From positions 1 through 55,621 of the IMG/VR virus record IMGVR_UViG_3300028897_000188: a DNA stretch of 55,621 nucleotides; one strand, given 5' to 3'. The notes beneath the pieces are model-generated. The model was not told where the DNA came from. It did no database searches and saw nothing but the letters and a program-made list of their open reading frames with translations. The translations under genes and the position numbers were made by a program. Source of the DNA: a virus. Below, piece by piece: positions 25,547 to 52,091 of this stretch (its first letter is position 1; every line of letters begins with the position of its first letter).

Positions 25547-25923
25547 TAGATATTCTCCATGCCTTTCTTAATCCCTTCGTCAATATCTGGAGTCAATACT
25601 CCTTCTGCCGCCAGCACTTCTCTGGCAAACTGTAGATTATGAATTCTGGATCTCCTTGATAGCTCTGGTTTACTTCCGTAACGAATAGCTTGGTGGTAGT
25701 TAGCTTGACCAGTAAAATAAGTCATTACACCGTCCTCTGATTCTGTCATTTGAATACCAGTATCTTCCTCATCCCTGATTAACATCTTCTCCATTTTCTT
25801 CTTATTTTTGCCTTGCTCTGTATCGGATTTATCAAGAGCCTTTTTAAAGACGTTATCAATTGTCTCTACTTCTTTGTATTTTGCTTTTTTTTGCAAATAC
25901 TTATCCATTTTATCACTTGCCAT
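25546..25923 (-). CDS. First gene of the late tail operon, hypothetical
   Basis: 125 residues, charged N-terminal half (Lys/Glu-rich helix) and a C-terminal part with NYHQAIRYGSKPELSRRSRIHNLQ. No family recognised. It is the first gene after the T4-like late promoter, and its stop/start overlap the gp53-like gene (TAATG), so it is most likely a virion or assembly protein. Confidence 0.6.
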   Translation of the reverse strand: MASDKMDKYLQKKAKYKEVETIDNVFKKALDKSDTEQGKNKKKMEKMLIRDEEDTGIQMTESEDGVMTYFTGQANYHQAIRYGSKPELSRRSRIHNLQFAREVLAAEGVLTPDIDEGIKKGMENI

Positions 25924-26057
25924 TTGACTTACCCTCCTTCAAGATTTGTTTACTCTTTTTGCGCTTGCAGTTCTTTGGTTTTATTTGACTCTTCCGCTTG
26001 AGTCTCCAGTTAGGTTTCAAATAAACACTCCTCCAAGAGTACAATCCTACTAATTAT

Positions 26058-26065
26058 TATTTATA
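26058..26065 (-). promoter_or_regulatory. T4-type late promoter -10 element (TATAAATA)
   Basis: The minus strand reads AAAAAATATATAAATAATAA, a perfect match to the T4 late promoter -10 octamer TATAAATA, about 135 nt upstream of the first tail-operon start and downstream of a terminator that closes the previous transcript. It can account for transcription of the whole baseplate and tail block to the left edge. T4 uses gp55, gp33 and the clamp for such promoters. Confidence 0.8.
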
Positions 26066-26103: not shown

Positions 26104-26142
26104 ATAAAAAAAAGTGGCAGAGGATCTCTCCCCTGCCACTTG
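26104..26142 (-). terminator. Rho-independent terminator
   Basis: On the minus strand an 8-bp stem AGTGGCAG/CTGCCACT with a 12-nt loop is followed by eight T residues. It closes the transcript carrying the 50-residue acidic gene and structured RNA, and separates it from the late promoter 40 nt further on. Confidence 0.88.
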
Positions 26143-26146
26143 CAAC

Positions 26147-26159
26147 GAAAGGAGGTGAT
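26147..26159 (-). other. 16S rRNA 3'-end (anti-Shine-Dalgarno) mimic
   Basis: Minus-strand sequence ATCACCTCCTTTC matches the conserved 16S 3' tail over 13 nt. It lies in a single-stranded gap between two hairpins. Read on the plus strand it is a perfect Shine-Dalgarno site 7 nt before a TTG that opens only a 21-codon frame, so a tiny plus-strand peptide is the alternative reading. Confidence 0.5.
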
Positions 26160-26340
26160 ACTTTGAGGTGTCCAATCTCAAAGCAACACATGAAAACAAC
26201 AACCTTGCCCCAAAAACAAGGTTATTGAAGAACTAGTCATTTTTTCTTCCGAAAAACTGGACTGGCATCCAGAAATGACTAGGGTTGACCTAGCGGCTCA
26301 AACTAGGTCGGGTCGGGCATCTCACAACAACAACGGAGGA

Positions 26341-26493
26341 TTATTCTTTAGTAGAAAAAAGATCAGATGGTTGACCGCTTGAAAACAGATCTTGCGGATT
26401 CCCAGTATCAAACAACTCTCCTTCTTCTACAGGAGCTTGAACTTCGTCTGGATCAATAACGAATTCATCTATGTCAAAAAAATCTCCATCCAT
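26341..26493 (-). CDS. Small acidic protein with two DLF motifs
   Basis: 50 residues, very acidic (starts MDGDFFDIDEF). The ATG has an ideal AAAGGAG site 7 nt upstream. The C-terminus carries two short motifs, NPQDLFS and QPSDLFS, which resemble the Q-x-x-D/S-L-F peptides that bind bacterial sliding clamps; T4 gp33 and gp55 also end in clamp-binding peptides. It has its own promoter and a long structured 3' UTR, and lies beside the late promoter. A regulatory or clamp-binding role is a guess from these motifs. Confidence 0.65.
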   Translation of the reverse strand: MDGDFFDIDEFVIDPDEVQAPVEEGELFDTGNPQDLFSSGQPSDLFSTKE

Positions 26494-26531
26494 GATTTAA
26501 CTCCTTTGGTTAAAATTGTGATTATATATAA

Positions 26532-26560
26532 TACTTATCACAAGTTAATACAAATGTCAA
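26532..26560 (-). promoter_or_regulatory. Sigma70-type promoter for the 50-residue acidic gene
   Basis: TTGACA (26555-26560), 17-nt spacer, then TAAGTA in the context TGATAAGTAT. The same combination recurs at 42829-42857. It overlaps the 3' end of the upstream basic-protein gene and lies about 40 nt before the acidic gene. Confidence 0.65.
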
Positions 26561-46527: not shown

Positions 46528-46604
46528 TGGAGCGGTAGACTGGACTTGAACCAGCAACAACCAGCTTGGAAGGCTAGTGTTCTACCAATTTGAACTACTA
46601 CCGC
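46528..46604 (-). tRNA. tRNA-Gly (UCC), CCA encoded
   Basis: Acceptor GCGGTAG/CTACCGC, anticodon loop CTTCCAA (anticodon TCC), T-arm with GTTCAAG and encoded T-CCA. Confidence 0.9.
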
Positions 46605-46673
46605 ATTGAGGAGAGTATAACAGAACCAGAATCAATTGTAAACGTACTTTTTTTGATAAGTAAAAATAATTGG

Positions 46674-46702
46674 TTTACATTCCCTAGTCACTATGTTAGC
46701 AT
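46674..46702 (+). promoter_or_regulatory. Likely promoter of the initiator-like gene
   Basis: TTTACA, 17-nt spacer, TAGCAT; the palindrome ATTCCTTATTAGGAAT follows immediately. Promoter match is moderate. Confidence 0.5.
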
Positions 46703-46718
46703 ATTCCTTATTAGGAAT
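46703..46718 (+). promoter_or_regulatory. Operator-like palindrome ATTCCTTATTAGGAAT
   Basis: It differs by one base from the 16-bp palindromes of the downstream iteron array and sits at the expected transcription start of the neighbouring gene, so the encoded protein may bind both and repress itself. Confidence 0.7.
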
Positions 46719-46737
46719 AATGTGGAGGTATAAAATT

Positions 46738-47262
46738 GTGAGCATAGAACATGAAATCGGAACAGATCCTTTATTTGTAGAACTAGTCAAAGTAACAAAT
46801 CTTTATGAGAATTTCAATTCCCAACATATTCATTCATTAGACATAATCAAAAAAATTGGCAGATATGCAATAATACCTCATTACTTGACAGATTGTTTAA
46901 TGTTAGCATTAGAAGATTCACCAAAAACATGTTGGAAATTGTTCTTATACCTCTATCAACATATTAATGGAAAAGCATTAGATCAAAACGGAACTCCAAA
47001 AACATTCATTAGGGAAGATAAAATAAAAAAAGCTACAGTCTTTATGAAGAAAATTAATTGTAATAGTTCATCTCAATTTTATAAAGCTATTAGAATTTTA
47101 AAAGAGAAAAAAATTATTTACATTAACAATGAAAATATTTTTTTAAATGGATTCCCTTTAACTTGGAATGTAGGGAATGAAATAAGAGAGAGCATAAAAA
47201 AAATTATAGAAGAAGAAATCGAAAAAATCAAAAGCAGAATAACCGAAAAAGAGAGGGCTTGA
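46738..47262 (+). CDS. Winged-helix replication-initiator-like protein (RepL-type candidate)
   Basis: About 174 residues from a GTG with GGAGG 9 nt upstream (the longer ATG frame lacks a ribosome site and covers the operator). The segment PKTCWKLFLYLYQHINGKA ... FYKAIRILKEKKIIYINNENIFLNGFPLTWN resembles plasmid RepL and phage replication winged helices. An AT-rich tract and iterons follow. Likely origin-binding initiator and autorepressor; a pure regulator is possible. Confidence 0.65.
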   Translation: MSIEHEIGTDPLFVELVKVTNLYENFNSQHIHSLDIIKKIGRYAIIPHYLTDCLMLALEDSPKTCWKLFLYLYQHINGKALDQNGTPKTFIREDKIKKATVFMKKINCNSSSQFYKAIRILKEKKIIYINNENIFLNGFPLTWNVGNEIRESIKKIIEEEIEKIKSRITEKERA

Positions 47263-47279
47263 AAAGCCTTCTTCTTTAT
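47255..47279 (+). terminator. Weak hairpin terminator after the initiator-like gene
   Basis: GGGCTT/AAGCCT stem across the stop codon, then TTCTTCTTT. Confidence 0.45.
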
Positions 47280-47377
47280 ATTTCTTATTATTAATTTATA
47301 TTCTTCTATATTATTCTTCTATAGTATTCTTATGGGAACGAGATTTAAAACAAAAATAAATAGTTACAAGATTTTTC
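47272..47377. other. AT-rich unwinding-element-like stretch
   Basis: The first 58 nt are almost only A/T with T-rich pyrimidine runs (TTCTTTATATTTCTTATT), between the initiator-like gene and the iteron array. This matches the usual layout of iteron-controlled origins. Confidence 0.55.
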
Positions 47378-47517
47378 ATTCCTTATAAGGAATAACCATT
47401 CCGTATAAGGAATAACCATTCCGTATAAGGAATCATTCATTCCGTATAAGGAATAACCATTCCGTATAAGGAATGAGCAAACTTGTAAAATGAACACAAT
47501 CATTCCTTATAAGGAAT
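47378..47517. repeat. Six palindromic iterons, ATTCC[GT]TATAAGGAAT
   Basis: Copies at 47378-47393, 47398-47413, 47418-47433, 47439-47454, 47459-47474 and 47502-47517. Spacing is 20, 20, 21, 20 and 43 bp, i.e. about two helical turns, so bound dimers would line up on one face. Copies 1 and 6 have T at the sixth base, the others G. A seventh related copy lies at 46703. Candidate replication origin or operator array. Confidence 0.85.
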
Positions 47518-47529
47518 GGAGGAGGAACT

Positions 47530-47853
47530 ATGAAAAGAGCATTACAAGCAATTTTAATCGCAGGGGAAGAAATGAAGTTTGATGTTTTAGCTAACAGGAA
47601 GAAAATCACAATCAGGGAAGGTCATCGTGATTATACTAAAGGCCCAGTTTTAATAGGTTGTAATCAACTTGACTGGGCTACAATGAGAAACATTGTAGAT
47701 GTTAGATATACTACTTTGGTAGAAGTTACGGAAGAGGAATATAAAGCAGATGGATTTGAGACAAAATCACAAATGCTGGATGGACTCGCTCAATTCTATC
47801 CTCAAATTAACTGGGAAAGTCCTGTAACCGTAATAAGATGGGAGGAAATGTAA
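47530..47853 (+). CDS. ASCH-domain-like protein
   Basis: 107 residues. RKKITIREGHRDYTKGPVLIGC, then VRYTTLVEVTEEEYKADGF and PVTVIRWE fit ASCH/PUA-like proteins, which often bind RNA or modified nucleosides. A GGAGGAGG site follows directly after the last iteron, so it is expressed from the origin region. Confidence 0.65.
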   Translation: MKRALQAILIAGEEMKFDVLANRKKITIREGHRDYTKGPVLIGCNQLDWATMRNIVDVRYTTLVEVTEEEYKADGFETKSQMLDGLAQFYPQINWESPVTVIRWEEM

Positions 47854-48206
47854 TGGATTTTAATGACTACCAAATGAAATGTAGGAAAACTGACGTGTGG
47901 CATGAAGTAGAAAAGGATATTGTCTTACCTCTTGAACCACCTTGGATGTATTACGTCTTGGGTATGGCTGGAGAGATCGGAGAATTTCAAGAGAAAGTAA
48001 AGAAGTTATTCAGAGATAAAAAAGGACATGTTGATTATGAATTCTCTAAAGACATTGCTTATGAGCTTGGAGATGTTCTCTGGTATATGGCTAGATTCTG
48101 TGATGAGTTAGGGATTCCGTTTGATGATATTCCTAAATTAAACGTAGAGAAATTATTCTCACGTAAAGACAGGAACAAACTACAAGGTGACGGAGATAAT
48201 AGATAA
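47853..48206 (+). CDS. MazG-like NTP pyrophosphohydrolase
   Basis: 117 residues from ATG 47853 (overlaps the ASCH stop; GGAGG just upstream). GMAGEIGEFQEKVKKLF and ELGDVLWYMARFC give the paired E-x-x-E and E-x-x-D metal motifs of MazG. It may clear nucleotide alarmones or damaged dNTPs, as in several phages. Confidence 0.85.
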   Translation: MDFNDYQMKCRKTDVWHEVEKDIVLPLEPPWMYYVLGMAGEIGEFQEKVKKLFRDKKGHVDYEFSKDIAYELGDVLWYMARFCDELGIPFDDIPKLNVEKLFSRKDRNKLQGDGDNR

Positions 48207-48313
48207 TGGATGAAGAATATGGATATATAATGTTATACTATATGGAGTTATGGAATTTATGCTTTACTCCATGTGGTCTTTGTTATGATTTAGATTTAAG
48301 AAGTATAATATGA
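48206..48313 (+). CDS. Tiny hypothetical protein
   Basis: 35 residues rich in Tyr, Leu and Cys; TAATG overlap with MazG-like stop and ATGA overlap with the next gene. Coupling supports it, homology is unknown. Confidence 0.45.
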   Translation: MDEEYGYIMLYYMELWNLCFTPCGLCYDLDLRSII

Positions 48314-48474
48314 TTATCGAAGTCAAAGAAAATAAAGCCAAGTGTCCTGAGTGTGGTAAATGGAGAGATGTAACTTTCCATGATATCAGGAAACAAAAAG
48401 AATTAAAATGTTGTAAGAACTATGCTTTGTTGGAGGTAAAAAATGTCAAAAATCAAAAAATACAAAAGAAGTAA
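48310..48474 (+). CDS. Small zinc-ribbon-like protein
   Basis: 54 residues; CPECG near residue 12 and CC near 34 could hold a zinc ion. Starts inside the previous stop and overlaps the next gene by 32 nt. Confidence 0.5.
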   Translation: MIIEVKENKAKCPECGKWRDVTFHDIRKQKELKCCKNYALLEVKNVKNQKIQKK

Positions 48475-48901
48475 AGAAGAAGAAAAACAGTTAGGTCAAA
48501 AAGACGCTGGACGCTTTGACGAAGGTAAAGTAAGAATGGATCTGATTCCTGCATGGGCTTTGGAGAAGATTGCGGAAGTATATACATACGGAGCGCAAAA
48601 ATATGACGATAATAATTGGCTTAAAGGAATGAAGTGGAGTAAGGTTTCTGGCCCATTGGAGCGTCACTATAATAAATGGAAAAGAGGAAACATTAAAGAT
48701 GAGGAAAGTAATTGCTACCACCTTGCTATGGTAGCTTGGAACGCAATAGCCTTAATGATATATCAGGAGTTTGGTTTGGGTACGGATGATAGGTGTCCTG
48801 TAGTAATGGATATGTTGGATGATAAACAAAGAAAGAAGATGATTGAACATTGGTTAAAGTGTTCAATGGAAGGAAAACAATATAACGGTCTGGAGGAATA
48901 A
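48443..48901 (+). CDS. dATP/dGTP diphosphohydrolase-like protein (DUF5664)
   Basis: 152 residues. RFDEGKVRMDLIP, EVYTYGAQKYDDNNWLKG, LERHYNKWKRGN and NCYHLAMVAWN follow the DUF5664 pattern of phage MazG-like dATP/dGTP hydrolases. It probably adjusts dNTP pools. It has a GGAGG site. Confidence 0.78.
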   Translation: MSKIKKYKRSKEEEKQLGQKDAGRFDEGKVRMDLIPAWALEKIAEVYTYGAQKYDDNNWLKGMKWSKVSGPLERHYNKWKRGNIKDEESNCYHLAMVAWNAIALMIYQEFGLGTDDRCPVVMDMLDDKQRKKMIEHWLKCSMEGKQYNGLEE

Positions 48902-49152
48902 TGGAATTAACGATTGAAAGACTTCAAGAAGCATATAAAAAAATAAACGGAGTAGAATATGACTTAAACAAAAGATGGGAAGAAGGGATTTCTCACCATC
49001 CTAAAAGTGAAGAGTTGTTTAAAAAGATTCAAGAAGTAGATTTTATTTGGAATGACGATCATTTTTGCTGGAAGTATGGTGGAGATGGAGACAACGGAGA
49101 AATCTTTATGTATGTTTTGGATGTCATATTTGAAGAAGAGGATAAGAAATGA
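48901..49152 (+). CDS. Hypothetical protein
   Basis: 83 residues, acidic, with a helix near the start and WNDDHFCWKYGGDGDNGEIFMY. No family recognised. It overlaps neighbours at TAATG and ATGA and is in the nucleotide/heptose gene run. Confidence 0.6.
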   Translation: MELTIERLQEAYKKINGVEYDLNKRWEEGISHHPKSEELFKKIQEVDFIWNDDHFCWKYGGDGDNGEIFMYVLDVIFEEEDKK

Positions 49153-49943
49153 TTTACTGTTTTGATATAGATGGAACCATATGTACAAAAGCTAGTCATT
49201 ATAAATTTGCTAAACCAATACAACCAATGATAGATAGGATAAACAAGCTGTATGAGAACGGTAATACAATTATTCTGTCTACTGCCAGAGGGAAAGGAAG
49301 CGGAGTGGATTATGAGGAGCTAACCAGACAACAGATTTTTAAATGGAAAGTAAAACATAATGAGATACTTTTCGATAAACCTTCCGCTGACTTCTACGTA
49401 GATGATAAAGCCGTGTTGCCTGAAACACTCTATCTAAAGGAGTACCGTCAAGTATTTACAAACGGATGTTTCGATATAATTCACGCTGGACACATCAAAC
49501 TTCTAAGGGAAGCATCAGAGCTTGGTATTGTAACAGTAGGAGTTAATTCAGATGACTCCGTTAGAAGGATCAAGAGAGAACCAGTTAACAAGCTGGAGGA
49601 TAGGATGGAAGTTCTATCTTCTATAAGATACGTGGATAGAGTTATACCGTTTACTCAGGATACTCCATTTGATTTAGTTATGCAATTACTACCAGATGTG
49701 ATTGTTAAAGGAGCCGATTGGAAAGGTAAGGATGTTAATGAATTTAAGTTTGTAGAGTCTTACGGAGGGAAGGTTCATTTTGTAGAATTGCTTACTGGTT
49801 ATTCAAGTAGCAAAATAATGTCTAGTTGGGAAGATCGCTATACGGAGTGTTTATGTGATTGTGAAAAAGAGATTTGTGGTATTTGTAGCCAGCCGTATTG
49901 TGATCATGTGAATTGTAAATGTAGAGAATGGAACATGAGATAA
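49149..49943 (+). CDS. HAD phosphatase fused to RfaE2/HldE-C-like cytidylyltransferase
   Basis: 264 residues. Residues 1-100 form a HAD domain (CFDIDGT, LSTARG). Residues about 105-235 have FTNGCFDIIHAGH, GVNSDDSVRRIKR and a GYSSSKIM end, matching HldE-C, which makes ADP-heptose. A Cys-rich tail (CLCDCEKEICGICS...) may bind zinc. With the kinase at 45532 it could give the last three ADP-heptose steps. The HAD part resembles capsule phosphatases rather than GmhB, so its step is inferred. Confidence 0.8.
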   Translation: MIYCFDIDGTICTKASHYKFAKPIQPMIDRINKLYENGNTIILSTARGKGSGVDYEELTRQQIFKWKVKHNEILFDKPSADFYVDDKAVLPETLYLKEYRQVFTNGCFDIIHAGHIKLLREASELGIVTVGVNSDDSVRRIKREPVNKLEDRMEVLSSIRYVDRVIPFTQDTPFDLVMQLLPDVIVKGADWKGKDVNEFKFVESYGGKVHFVELLTGYSSSKIMSSWEDRYTECLCDCEKEICGICSQPYCDHVNCKCREWNMR

Positions 49944-49944
49944 A

Positions 49945-50031
49945 TGGTACTAGGGGAGGGAGTTGAACCCTCAATCCCTTTCGGGCAACGGATTTTAAGT
50001 CCGTTGTGTATACCAATTCCACCACCCTAGT
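49945..50031 (-). tRNA. tRNA-Leu (UAA), CCA encoded
   Basis: Anticodon loop CTTAAAA, long variable arm, acceptor ACTAGGG/CCCTAGT plus A-CCA. Its first bases contain the TAG stop of the upstream gene. Confidence 0.92.
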
Positions 50032-50404
50032 AAACTTTTACTTCATCTATTGTGTAGTCAATGTATTCCATATCGAATTCAAACTGCTCATCGACAGTAT
50101 TATTTTTCCTGTCAATTATTTCACTAAATTTTTCCCAGTATTCAAGAGGATCAATTTTTAACATTTCAGGATCTACAAAACTATAGCCATATTTTTCTTG
50201 GGAATCTTTCAATCCAACTTCTTCATTGAATTTATCTACTTCTTCTTTAATACGGTGAGCTTCCGCTTTACAGTTAATACAGAAATTTTCTGCATTGTCT
50301 TTATCAAAGAATCCCTTCGTAACCCATGTGTGATAACTATCATGTTCTCCGCTGTGACCAATGACTACATATACAATTTTCGGTTCTAACAAAGTAGGTG
50401 TCAT
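50027..50404 (-). CDS. Hypothetical protein ending inside a tRNA gene
   Basis: 125 residues, acidic alpha/beta (YVVIGHSGEHDSYHTWVTKGF at the start). Its TAG stop lies in the 5' acceptor stem of tRNA-Leu, so mRNA and tRNA share a transcript and processing would cut at the stop codon. Confidence 0.6.
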   Translation of the reverse strand: MTPTLLEPKIVYVVIGHSGEHDSYHTWVTKGFFDKDNAENFCINCKAEAHRIKEEVDKFNEEVGLKDSQEKYGYSFVDPEMLKIDPLEYWEKFSEIIDRKNNTVDEQFEFDMEYIDYTIDEVKVY

Positions 50405-50425
50405 TTTTCTTTCCTTTCATTAAAA

Positions 50426-50511
50426 TGGTACGTGAGGAGGGAGTCGAACCCTCAATCCTTGCGGCACTAGATCCTAAGTCTAGCGTGTATACCTATTTCC
50501 ACCACTCACGT
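50426..50511 (-). tRNA. tRNA-Leu (UAG), CCA encoded
   Basis: Anticodon loop CTTAGGA, long variable arm, acceptor ACGTGAG/CTCACGT plus A-CCA. With the UAA tRNA this covers A-rich leucine codons. Confidence 0.92.
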
Positions 50512-50514
50512 ATA

Positions 50515-50604
50515 TTATCGAATCCAAAACATTCCCTGCTCTTCCCAATAATCATTCCAAGCAGTTTTTATCTTCTTCCATATTTTTTTAATCTTCTTCT
50601 TCAT
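50515..50604 (-). CDS. Tiny basic peptide gene between two tRNAs
   Basis: 29 residues (MKKKIKKIWKKIKTAWNDYW...), amphipathic and basic, with GGAG 6 nt before the ATG. It may act at membranes or on nucleic acid; it might also be fortuitous. Confidence 0.45.
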   Translation of the reverse strand: MKKKIKKIWKKIKTAWNDYWEEQGMFWIR

Positions 50605-50614
50605 ATTTTACTCC

Positions 50615-50698
50615 TGGTTGGGGAGGTAGGATTTGAACCTACGTGTGATGTATCGGTTTTACAGACCGACTCCTTCGACCAGACTCGGACACTCCCCA
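50615..50698 (-). tRNA. tRNA-Tyr (GUA), CCA encoded
   Basis: Anticodon loop CTGTAAA, class II variable arm, acceptor TGGGGAG/CTCCCCA plus A-CCA. The first base pair T-A is unusual. Confidence 0.88.
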
Positions 50699-50702
50699 AT
50701 AT

Positions 50703-50801
50703 TTATTTTATAAGTACTCCGCAATGAGGACATTTTCTTGGAAGTTCATAAACACTCAAACAAGTATCATTTCCACAATGAGGACATTTTATAGTTTGCA
50801 T
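50703..50801 (-). CDS. Tiny zinc-ribbon protein
   Basis: 32 residues with two CPHCG knuckles 18 residues apart, a minimal zinc ribbon. It precedes tRNA-Tyr and follows a Cys-rich gene with a 13-nt overlap. Identical knuckles argue that the frame is real. Confidence 0.6.
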   Translation of the reverse strand: MQTIKCPHCGNDTCLSVYELPRKCPHCGVLIK

Positions 50802-50923
50802 TTACATCTATCTCCTTTTTTTACTTCCTTTCTTAACTTCTTACAGTATAAGGTATTATCCTCTTTCCAGATAATGTGTTCACATTTCAGTTTGCATAAA
50901 GGTTTTATTCTACCTACCGTCAT
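50789..50923 (-). CDS. Small cysteine-rich protein
   Basis: 44 residues from MTVGRIKPLCKLKCEH, chosen because GGAGG lies just upstream and the overlap with the previous gene is 14 nt. A longer frame to 50974 is possible. Cysteines (CKLKC, C, CKC) suggest metal binding. Confidence 0.5.
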   Translation of the reverse strand: MTVGRIKPLCKLKCEHIIWKEDNTLYCKKLRKEVKKGDRCKCKL

Positions 50924-51158
50924 TTCCTCCGTCTGGTAGGATATCTCTTTGTTCCAATCCTTTTTTATATTCATTTACAATTCGCTCCAAAATGGTTTTA
51001 ACATTTTTTATTTCATAAACGGAGCAATAAAGTTTAATCGGTACAGCTATATGATCCGTATCAACGTCTTCCACATTCTTCAAGACTTTATCTACTAATC
51101 CCATAGCTCTGCTTAATCTTGCGATATCATGTTTTATGGCTTCGTAAACATCATCCAT
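50910..51158 (-). CDS. Hypothetical helical protein
   Basis: 82 residues, helical and amphipathic (MDDVYEAIKHDIARLSRAMGL). Overlaps the upstream gene by 8 nt. No family recognised. Confidence 0.55.
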   Translation of the reverse strand: MDDVYEAIKHDIARLSRAMGLVDKVLKNVEDVDTDHIAVPIKLYCSVYEIKNVKTILERIVNEYKKGLEQRDILPDGGNDGR

Positions 51159-51609
51159 TTTTTTTCTTCTTTTTCACTTTTCGTTTTCTTTGAGGTTTTG
51201 ATAGAATATTTTTTACTTTCGCTTTTTCTATTTCCTCTTCTAAAAGTTTTATGTTTGCATACGGAAAGTATTTATCTGTAGTTATATATTTTTTAAAGAT
51301 TTTTCTAAGCCAATCTCCAAGTCTTGTGGGTATTGTGTTTCTAGGTATTCCTTTAGTTTGTTGTCCTGTTTTTCTTTGAAACGACATATCAAAGACATAA
51401 GAATCTCTTGTAGGAGCCTTGTAGAATTCCTCCACTACTTCTCCATCTATTTTCTTTTTTATTCTGACTTCATCTATATAGGTTCTATTGTAGCATATAA
51501 ACCGATATCCCTTTTGAGGATGAGCGGTAAGCTTGGAGAATGTAATTCTTCCATGCTCTCCCATATTAATAAAGGGAACACCTTTATCGGTATATTCTAA
51601 TGATATCAT
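51151..51609 (-). CDS. Basic hypothetical protein
   Basis: About 152 residues. The start at MISLEYTDKG is preferred because the promoter -10 (51636-51641) lies over the codons of a longer TTG frame; AGGA precedes this ATG. Strand-rich N-terminus and very basic Lys-rich C-terminus (RKRKVKKKKK) suggest nucleic-acid binding. Function unknown. Confidence 0.6.
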   Translation of the reverse strand: MISLEYTDKGVPFINMGEHGRITFSKLTAHPQKGYRFICYNRTYIDEVRIKKKIDGEVVEEFYKAPTRDSYVFDMSFQRKTGQQTKGIPRNTIPTRLGDWLRKIFKKYITTDKYFPYANIKLLEEEIEKAKVKNILSKPQRKRKVKKKKKNG

Positions 51610-51635
51610 ATTTTTTGATCCTAATTTTTTCTTGC

Positions 51636-51664
51636 ATATTATCATAGCCAATTTTGAATGTCAA
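51636..51664 (-). promoter_or_regulatory. Sigma70 promoter, minus strand
   Basis: TTGACA (51659-51664), 17-nt spacer, TAATAT (51636-51641) preceded by TGA. It is back to back with the HU promoter. Confidence 0.8.
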
Positions 51665-51676
51665 CAAAAAAAATTC

Positions 51677-51705
51677 TTGACAGTCTTTTAGATAAATAGT
51701 ATTAG
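51677..51705 (+). promoter_or_regulatory. Sigma70 promoter of the HU gene
   Basis: TTGACA, 17-nt spacer, TATTAG (51700-51705). The divergent pair is only 12 bp apart at the -35 boxes. Confidence 0.8.
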
Positions 51706-51738
51706 AGGGCTACTACTACTTATTTAGGAGAAATTGTT

Positions 51739-52011
51739 ATGAATAAAAAAGAACTAATCAAACGTGTTTCTGATGAAATAGGAGTTATTCAATCAGAGAC
51801 AGCTATCATTGTAGATGCTGTACTGAAAGAAATATATAAAGGAATATTAGAAAACGATAAGGTCACTTTTGAAAATTTCGGAGCTTTCCATAAGAAGGTA
51901 AGAAGAGCAAGGAAAGCCAGCAACCCTAAGACTGGAGCAACCATAGACGTTCCAGCTAAAACGGTTGTGAGTTTTAAAATGTCTAGAAAGCTGAAACAAG
52001 ATCTGAATTAA
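51739..52011 (+). CDS. HU/IHF-family DNA-binding protein
   Basis: 90 residues, the standard length. MNKKELIKRVSDEIG, FENFGAFHKKVRRARKASNPKTGATIDVPAKTVVSF and SRKLKQDLN match HU end to end, including the N-P-x-T-G beta-arm tip. It bends and packs phage DNA and may assist origin or transposition-like functions. AGGAG site present. Confidence 0.92.
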   Translation: MNKKELIKRVSDEIGVIQSETAIIVDAVLKEIYKGILENDKVTFENFGAFHKKVRRARKASNPKTGATIDVPAKTVVSFKMSRKLKQDLN

Positions 52012-52014
52012 TGT

Positions 52015-52091
52015 CATGGTGTAGCTCAGTCTGGTAGAGCGGGTGCTTTGGGAGCATCAGGTCGGAGGTTCAAATCCTCCCACCGTGACCA
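52015..52091 (+). tRNA. tRNA-Pro (UGG), CCA encoded
   Basis: Anticodon loop TTTGGGA, acceptor CATGGTG/CACCGTG with one T-G wobble, T-arm GTTCAAA and encoded A-CCA. It follows the HU stop by 3 nt, so it is probably processed from the HU transcript. Confidence 0.9.

Follow-up and report, generated by a model that had tools for sequence, protein, structure and literature searches.

The window, as we refer to the whole stretch of DNA analysed here, makes up an entire IMG/VR virus record (55,621 bases), and its gene products include a baseplate wedge protein, the large subunit of ribonucleotide reductase, a DNA primase and a T4 RNase H-type exonuclease. A short tract resembling the 3′ tail of 16S rRNA lies at the junction between a metabolic operon and a baseplate operon, both of which are encoded on the minus strand. 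The wedge protein is distantly similar to gp53 of cyanophages; in an annotated phage collection, the baseplate protein matched the wedge proteins of cyanophages and of one marine virus at 28.9-48.2%, and the same collection held no DNA match to the window. No relative was found among cellular genome contigs (genome_contigs), and the 16S tail used for comparison may not be that of the host. The window also carries five tRNA genes (Gly, Leu, Leu, Tyr, and Pro, at 46528-52091), which were its only matches to Rfam; with E values of up to 1 allowed, Termite-leu alone appeared, at 19 bits against a cut-off of 51.

At the junction, an open reading frame (ORF) at 26341-26493 of the minus strand encodes an acidic protein of 50 amino acids beginning with FFDIDEFVIDPDE. 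It is preceded by the Shine-Dalgarno (SD) sequence AAAGGAG (26501-26507, minus strand) and by TTGACA (26555-26560, minus strand), part of a promoter-like site upstream of the gene. The ORF lies directly upstream of an RNA with an array of hairpins, which is followed by an intrinsic terminator and, at 26058-26065 of the same strand, by the late-promoter-like site TATAAATA. TATAAATA resembles the T4 late consensus, and we take it to be a T4-late-type promoter for the baseplate operon; ATAATTAGTAGGAT often follows it. A small basic ORF with a TTG start (LKPNWRLKRK...) is located between this site and the baseplate genes (25913-26044, minus strand), and by eye a similar reading is present in L005, L129, and L147, three of the relatives introduced below.

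Relatives were gathered by protein and DNA scans of viral contigs. Three contigs were identical to the window across the 861 bases compared, and ten distinct relatives span the boundary (L005, L006, L007, L129, L139, L147, L156, L143, L166, and L169), with L008 giving the same reading as L007 there. The acidic ORF is conserved in all ten (48-54 codons) and is always followed by a terminator. With the window included, the order acidic ORF, 3′ untranslated region (UTR), terminator, and TATAAATA is found in 11 of 11 sequences, TATAAATA being placed 64-111 bases past the terminator start. The proteins of this family, 48-54 amino acids long, share the pattern FFDIDEFVIDPDE ... DTGxxxDLFSSGxxQDIFTTK, and the phage collection yielded only two weak matches, with E values of about 9. 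Nine of 11 sequences have TTGACA within their top-scoring promoter-like site, or 10 of 11 if L129 is added by eye; TGATAA commonly follows about 14-15 bases later. The combined promoter score did not exceed that of shuffled sequences in most of the 11 sequences. The location of TATAAATA between the terminator and the baseplate genes in all 11 sequences resembles the layout of T4-type late transcription units, from which the present group differs in consisting of divergent phages that are known from metagenomes only.

Because the acidic ORF, the terminator, TATAAATA, and TTGACA are shared, the simplest view of the RNA downstream of the ORF is that of a 3′ UTR belonging to a short mRNA, not of an RNA standing by itself. 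We picture a T4-like phage in which this short mRNA, probably made early, codes for the 50-amino-acid acidic protein, and the hairpin array and the strong terminator would close the unit and separate it from a baseplate operon starting at TATAAATA. The transcription start of the acidic-gene mRNA, like its processing and any regulatory effect, is something that we infer.

Hairpins and terminator of the 3′ UTR

A structured minus-strand RNA ending in a terminator had been proposed from the letters of the DNA, and the folding analysis bears this out. The 241 nt of the minus strand at 26100-26340 fold with -86.5 kcal/mol (z score of -5.2), a value that 0 of 200 shuffles equalled, and the UTR was more stable than its shuffles in all eight sequences folded (z scores of -4.9 to -9.6), namely the window, L005, L006, L007, L129, L139, L147, and L156. 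The array comprises four hairpins, all on the minus strand: H1 (GACCUAG/CUAGGUC, 26287-26309), present in 6 of 11 sequences; H2 (CUAGUCA/UGACUAG, 26232-26283), present in 7 of 11 and holding two inner hairpins in the window; H3, described here in its window form (26197-26227); and H4 (26155-26189). The terminator (26104-26141, minus strand) consists of a G+C-rich hairpin of 13 pairs at 26112-26141 and a T run, read as a U tract in the RNA, and has the properties of an intrinsic terminator.

Covariation across related phages, suggested earlier as a check, was seen as two-sided changes that keep the base pair, at pairs 3, 5, 6, 11, and 12 of the terminator and at one position each of H1 and of Hx, a hairpin that the window lacks; the pairs were counted on hand-picked arms, a choice that favours structure. 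In H2, the innermost counted position switches between U-A and A-U, yet is unpaired in two of six sequences, and the outermost counted position is unpaired in the window. The length of the UTR ahead of the terminator varies from 33 to 244 bases across the relatives, and the hairpin array is thus lineage specific. It is almost absent from L156 and L166. In L147, a larger and quite different array occupies the equivalent position (L147:4197-4470), with the H2 stem alone retained. A CTAG-type motif was considered as an operator and was discarded, as it is not in excess within the window. Taken together, the sequence, the synteny, and the conserved hairpins with their compensatory changes establish that the structured 3′ UTR is real, and it is absent from Rfam.

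The 16S-like tract and its conservation

The tract AUCACCUCCUUUC (26147-26159, minus strand) is a 13-nt match to the 16S 3′ tail, and its description in the sequence-only reading as a copy of that tail proved accurate: ATCACCTCCTTTC has a single exact copy in the window, on the minus strand, compared with a mean of 0.01 in 100 dinucleotide shuffles. Its placement between two hairpins was only partly correct. The tract is flanked by the 26155-26189 hairpin and the terminator, but about five of its bases are located inside H4, the 3′ strand of which contains the CAC of the 13-mer. In the window, the first five bases of the 13-mer have unpaired probabilities of 0.11, 1.0, 0.01, 0.01, and 0.02, and four of them (A, C, A, and C) are predicted to be paired in the H4 stem. 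The portion outside H4, CUCCUUUC (26147-26154, minus strand), is eight bases long, six of which have unpaired probabilities above 0.9 in the isolated RNA.

The longest match to the 16S tail was determined for eight sequences. It measures 13 nt in the window, a length reached by 0 of 500 shuffles, and 10 nt in L005 (3 of 500 shuffles); in L006, L007, L129, L139, L147, and L156 it is 5-7 nt, as expected by chance (36 to 496 of 500 shuffles). By eye, L143 contains TCCTTTCT near the terminator. An anti-SD mimic should both exceed chance and be kept within its RNA family; the tract exceeds chance in two of the eight sequences tested, and the relatives therefore rule out a family-wide mimic.

It is conceivable that H4 and the terminator are separated by a neutral, pyrimidine-rich spacer whose drift has produced a 16S-like sequence, and that what matters at this locus is limited to its ORF, hairpins, and terminator. 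We regard this as a serious contender, if one that falls short of an even chance. It accords with the chance-level match in six of eight sequences, with the ACC at the start of the tract, which forms the base of the H4 stem in L005 and others, and with L129, which carries a purine spacer in place of the pyrimidine tract. It sits less easily with the rarity of matches of this length among shuffles of the window and L005, and with the 12-mer ACCTCCTTTCGT, which is identical in these two sequences; of the runs that they share, only one in the terminator (17) is longer, and one in H2 is equal in length. The exact sharing of ACCTCCTTTCGT hints at constraint within this pair, as judged from the sequences. 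The 16S-like tract is real; among the sequences tested, only two sister phages carry it, and the stem accounts for part of it.

Read on the plus strand, the same bases provide a full SD sequence with 7-nt spacing to a TTG start, and the frame that follows has only 21 codons (26163-26228), just as had been described. The 15-mer around the tract usually represents an SD on the plus strand, since 85 of the 120 matches listed among viral contigs, where it occurs at least 120 times, precede an ORF of at least 40 codons. Another 35 listed matches lack a full 40-codon ORF; 29 of them were examined, and the remaining six either repeat the window's own site (two) or are cut by a contig end (four). Of the 29 examined, 14 lie outside ORFs of more than 90 codons; in their flanks, read by eye, a terminator follows the copy of the window only. 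Despite the well-formed SD, a 21-codon peptide gene appears extremely unlikely at this site: frame, start, and length vary among the relatives, SD and start were not found in 6 of 11 sequences, the gene would be antisense to the conserved structured UTR, and the terminators found in this stretch all point along the minus strand. The plus-strand peptide was ruled out because no frame is conserved in the relatives, and the earlier preference for the minus strand was sound.

Predicted pairing of the tract with the SD of the acidic gene

In the predicted fold of the region from 26560 to 26100, the seven bases CUCCUUU of the tract form a helix with the acidic ORF's SD, AAAGGAG, at pairing probabilities of 0.91-1.00. 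The minimum-energy structure extends this helix by GUUG/UAAC across one C-C mismatch (seven pairs, the mismatch, and four pairs), and a repeat finder listed the arms formed by the tract and the SD first among 12 inverted repeats. When the flanks were shuffled and the core was kept, 28 of 2000 shuffles of the window paired equally well with its own ribosome site. This test was restricted to the window, L005, and L156, and it failed in L005 (299 of 2000) and L156 (705 of 2000). The expected number of pairs between the SD region and the spacer is 9.74 in the window, 5.10 in L143, and 4.93 in L156, the only 3 of 11 sequences with more than 4; it is below 1.4 in the other eight. Across the 11 sequences, spacers did not pair better with their own ribosome site than with swapped ones (permutation p of 0.105), and nothing was left of the signal once the window and L005 were removed (Fisher combined p of 0.34). 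Of the 61 other ribosome sites in the window, 13 form a stronger duplex with the tract than its own site does. A look by eye at L156, L006, and L143 had encouraged the idea of family-wide cis pairing, which was set aside when the swap and flank tests gave it no support.

A precedent is provided by icaR of Staphylococcus aureus, for which excerpts of the published study describe a 3′ UTR motif that binds the SD by base pairing, which prevents initiation and provides an RNase III site (PMC3868564). The window resembles icaR, as presented in those excerpts, in having a long 3′ UTR with a C/U-rich motif whose complement is the mRNA's own SD. The motif is UCCCCUG in icaR (PMC3868564) and CUCCUUU in the window, where the mRNA is that of a phage and the pairing is a prediction only.

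We tentatively prefer, at less than even confidence, to read the feature as the 3′ UTR of a short acidic-protein mRNA, with a spacer that in the lineage of the window pairs with the SD of that mRNA. In this lineage, the bases separating the last hairpin from the terminator are CUCCUUUC; in the full-length mRNA they would pair with AAAGGAG, extended by UAAC/GUUG. This pairing would close the mRNA on itself and may lower translation of the acidic protein and/or create a duplex that RNase III could cut, in the manner of icaR. If the tract has a function, this pairing with its own SD is the most likely one, and neutral drift is almost as likely.

Action in trans and wider significance

The sequence-only reading had favoured an independent, dedicated anti-SD mimic, and this claim was not supported. 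The simplest account of the RNA is a small-protein mRNA 3′ UTR with a tract above chance in two of eight sequences, about five tract bases are taken up by H4, and the rest are predicted to be hidden by pairing with the mRNA's own SD. The idea of that reading, that the mimic shifts translation by binding phage or host ribosome sites, could take the form of a processed, stable 3′ RNA whose anti-SD tract pairs in trans with the SDs of phage or host mRNAs. The predicted duplex of the tract with a full SD (-22.5 kcal/mol, compared with -11.7 kcal/mol with its own ribosome site) is consistent with such a role, as are the mostly free CUCCUUUC predicted for the isolated 3′ UTR and the 5′ extension of the tract, which matches 16S and not the complement of its own SD. 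However, the tract is buried in the predicted fold of the full-length mRNA, is not retained across the family, and has no standout target among the 62 ribosome sites of the window. We consider this role unlikely.

The predicted duplex also invites comparison with OLE RNA. Excerpts of a published report describe a segment of that RNA identical to the 16S anti-SD, which pairs with an SD-like strand and is recognised by bS21 (PMC12054373). The likeness, on the basis of these excerpts, is that of a structured RNA with a perfect 16S anti-SD copy able to pair with an SD-like strand; the window RNA differs in being the 3′ UTR of a small gene with no sequence or Rfam match to OLE, and in having a candidate duplex with no known protein partner. 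By analogy, the SD/anti-SD-like duplex in the mRNA could act as a lure for bS21 or another ribosomal protein of the host, since a duplex of the same kind forms in the predicted mRNA fold. We judge this very unlikely: the OLE RNA family model found no OLE-like sequence in the window, and the window has no bS21 gene, though a host copy would suffice.

In a broader form, a phage lineage would have recruited the 3′ UTR of a small-protein mRNA as the carrier of a copy of the host 16S 3′ tail; this RNA, released from the mRNA or retained in it, would compete for SDs or engage ribosomal proteins in infection. This is improbable in our estimate. Ribosome mimicry is unproven, and the tract is best read as cis self-pairing or as an accident of the lineage. 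Excerpts of a review of phage small RNAs mention none that mimics rRNA (PMC12197685), and none of the titles and abstracts listed in literature searches, which mostly did not extend to subscription papers, deals with a phage RNA carrying a copy of the 16S tail.

If neither reading of the tract holds, the locus would be a caution that a stem base and a pyrimidine spacer can yield a 16S-like match in short UTRs. Should the tract work in trans, a fragment of ribosomal RNA would be serving a virus as a regulator of translation. If the cis pairing is real, it would represent 3′-UTR control of translation in a phage, with the eleven sequences as its natural variants.
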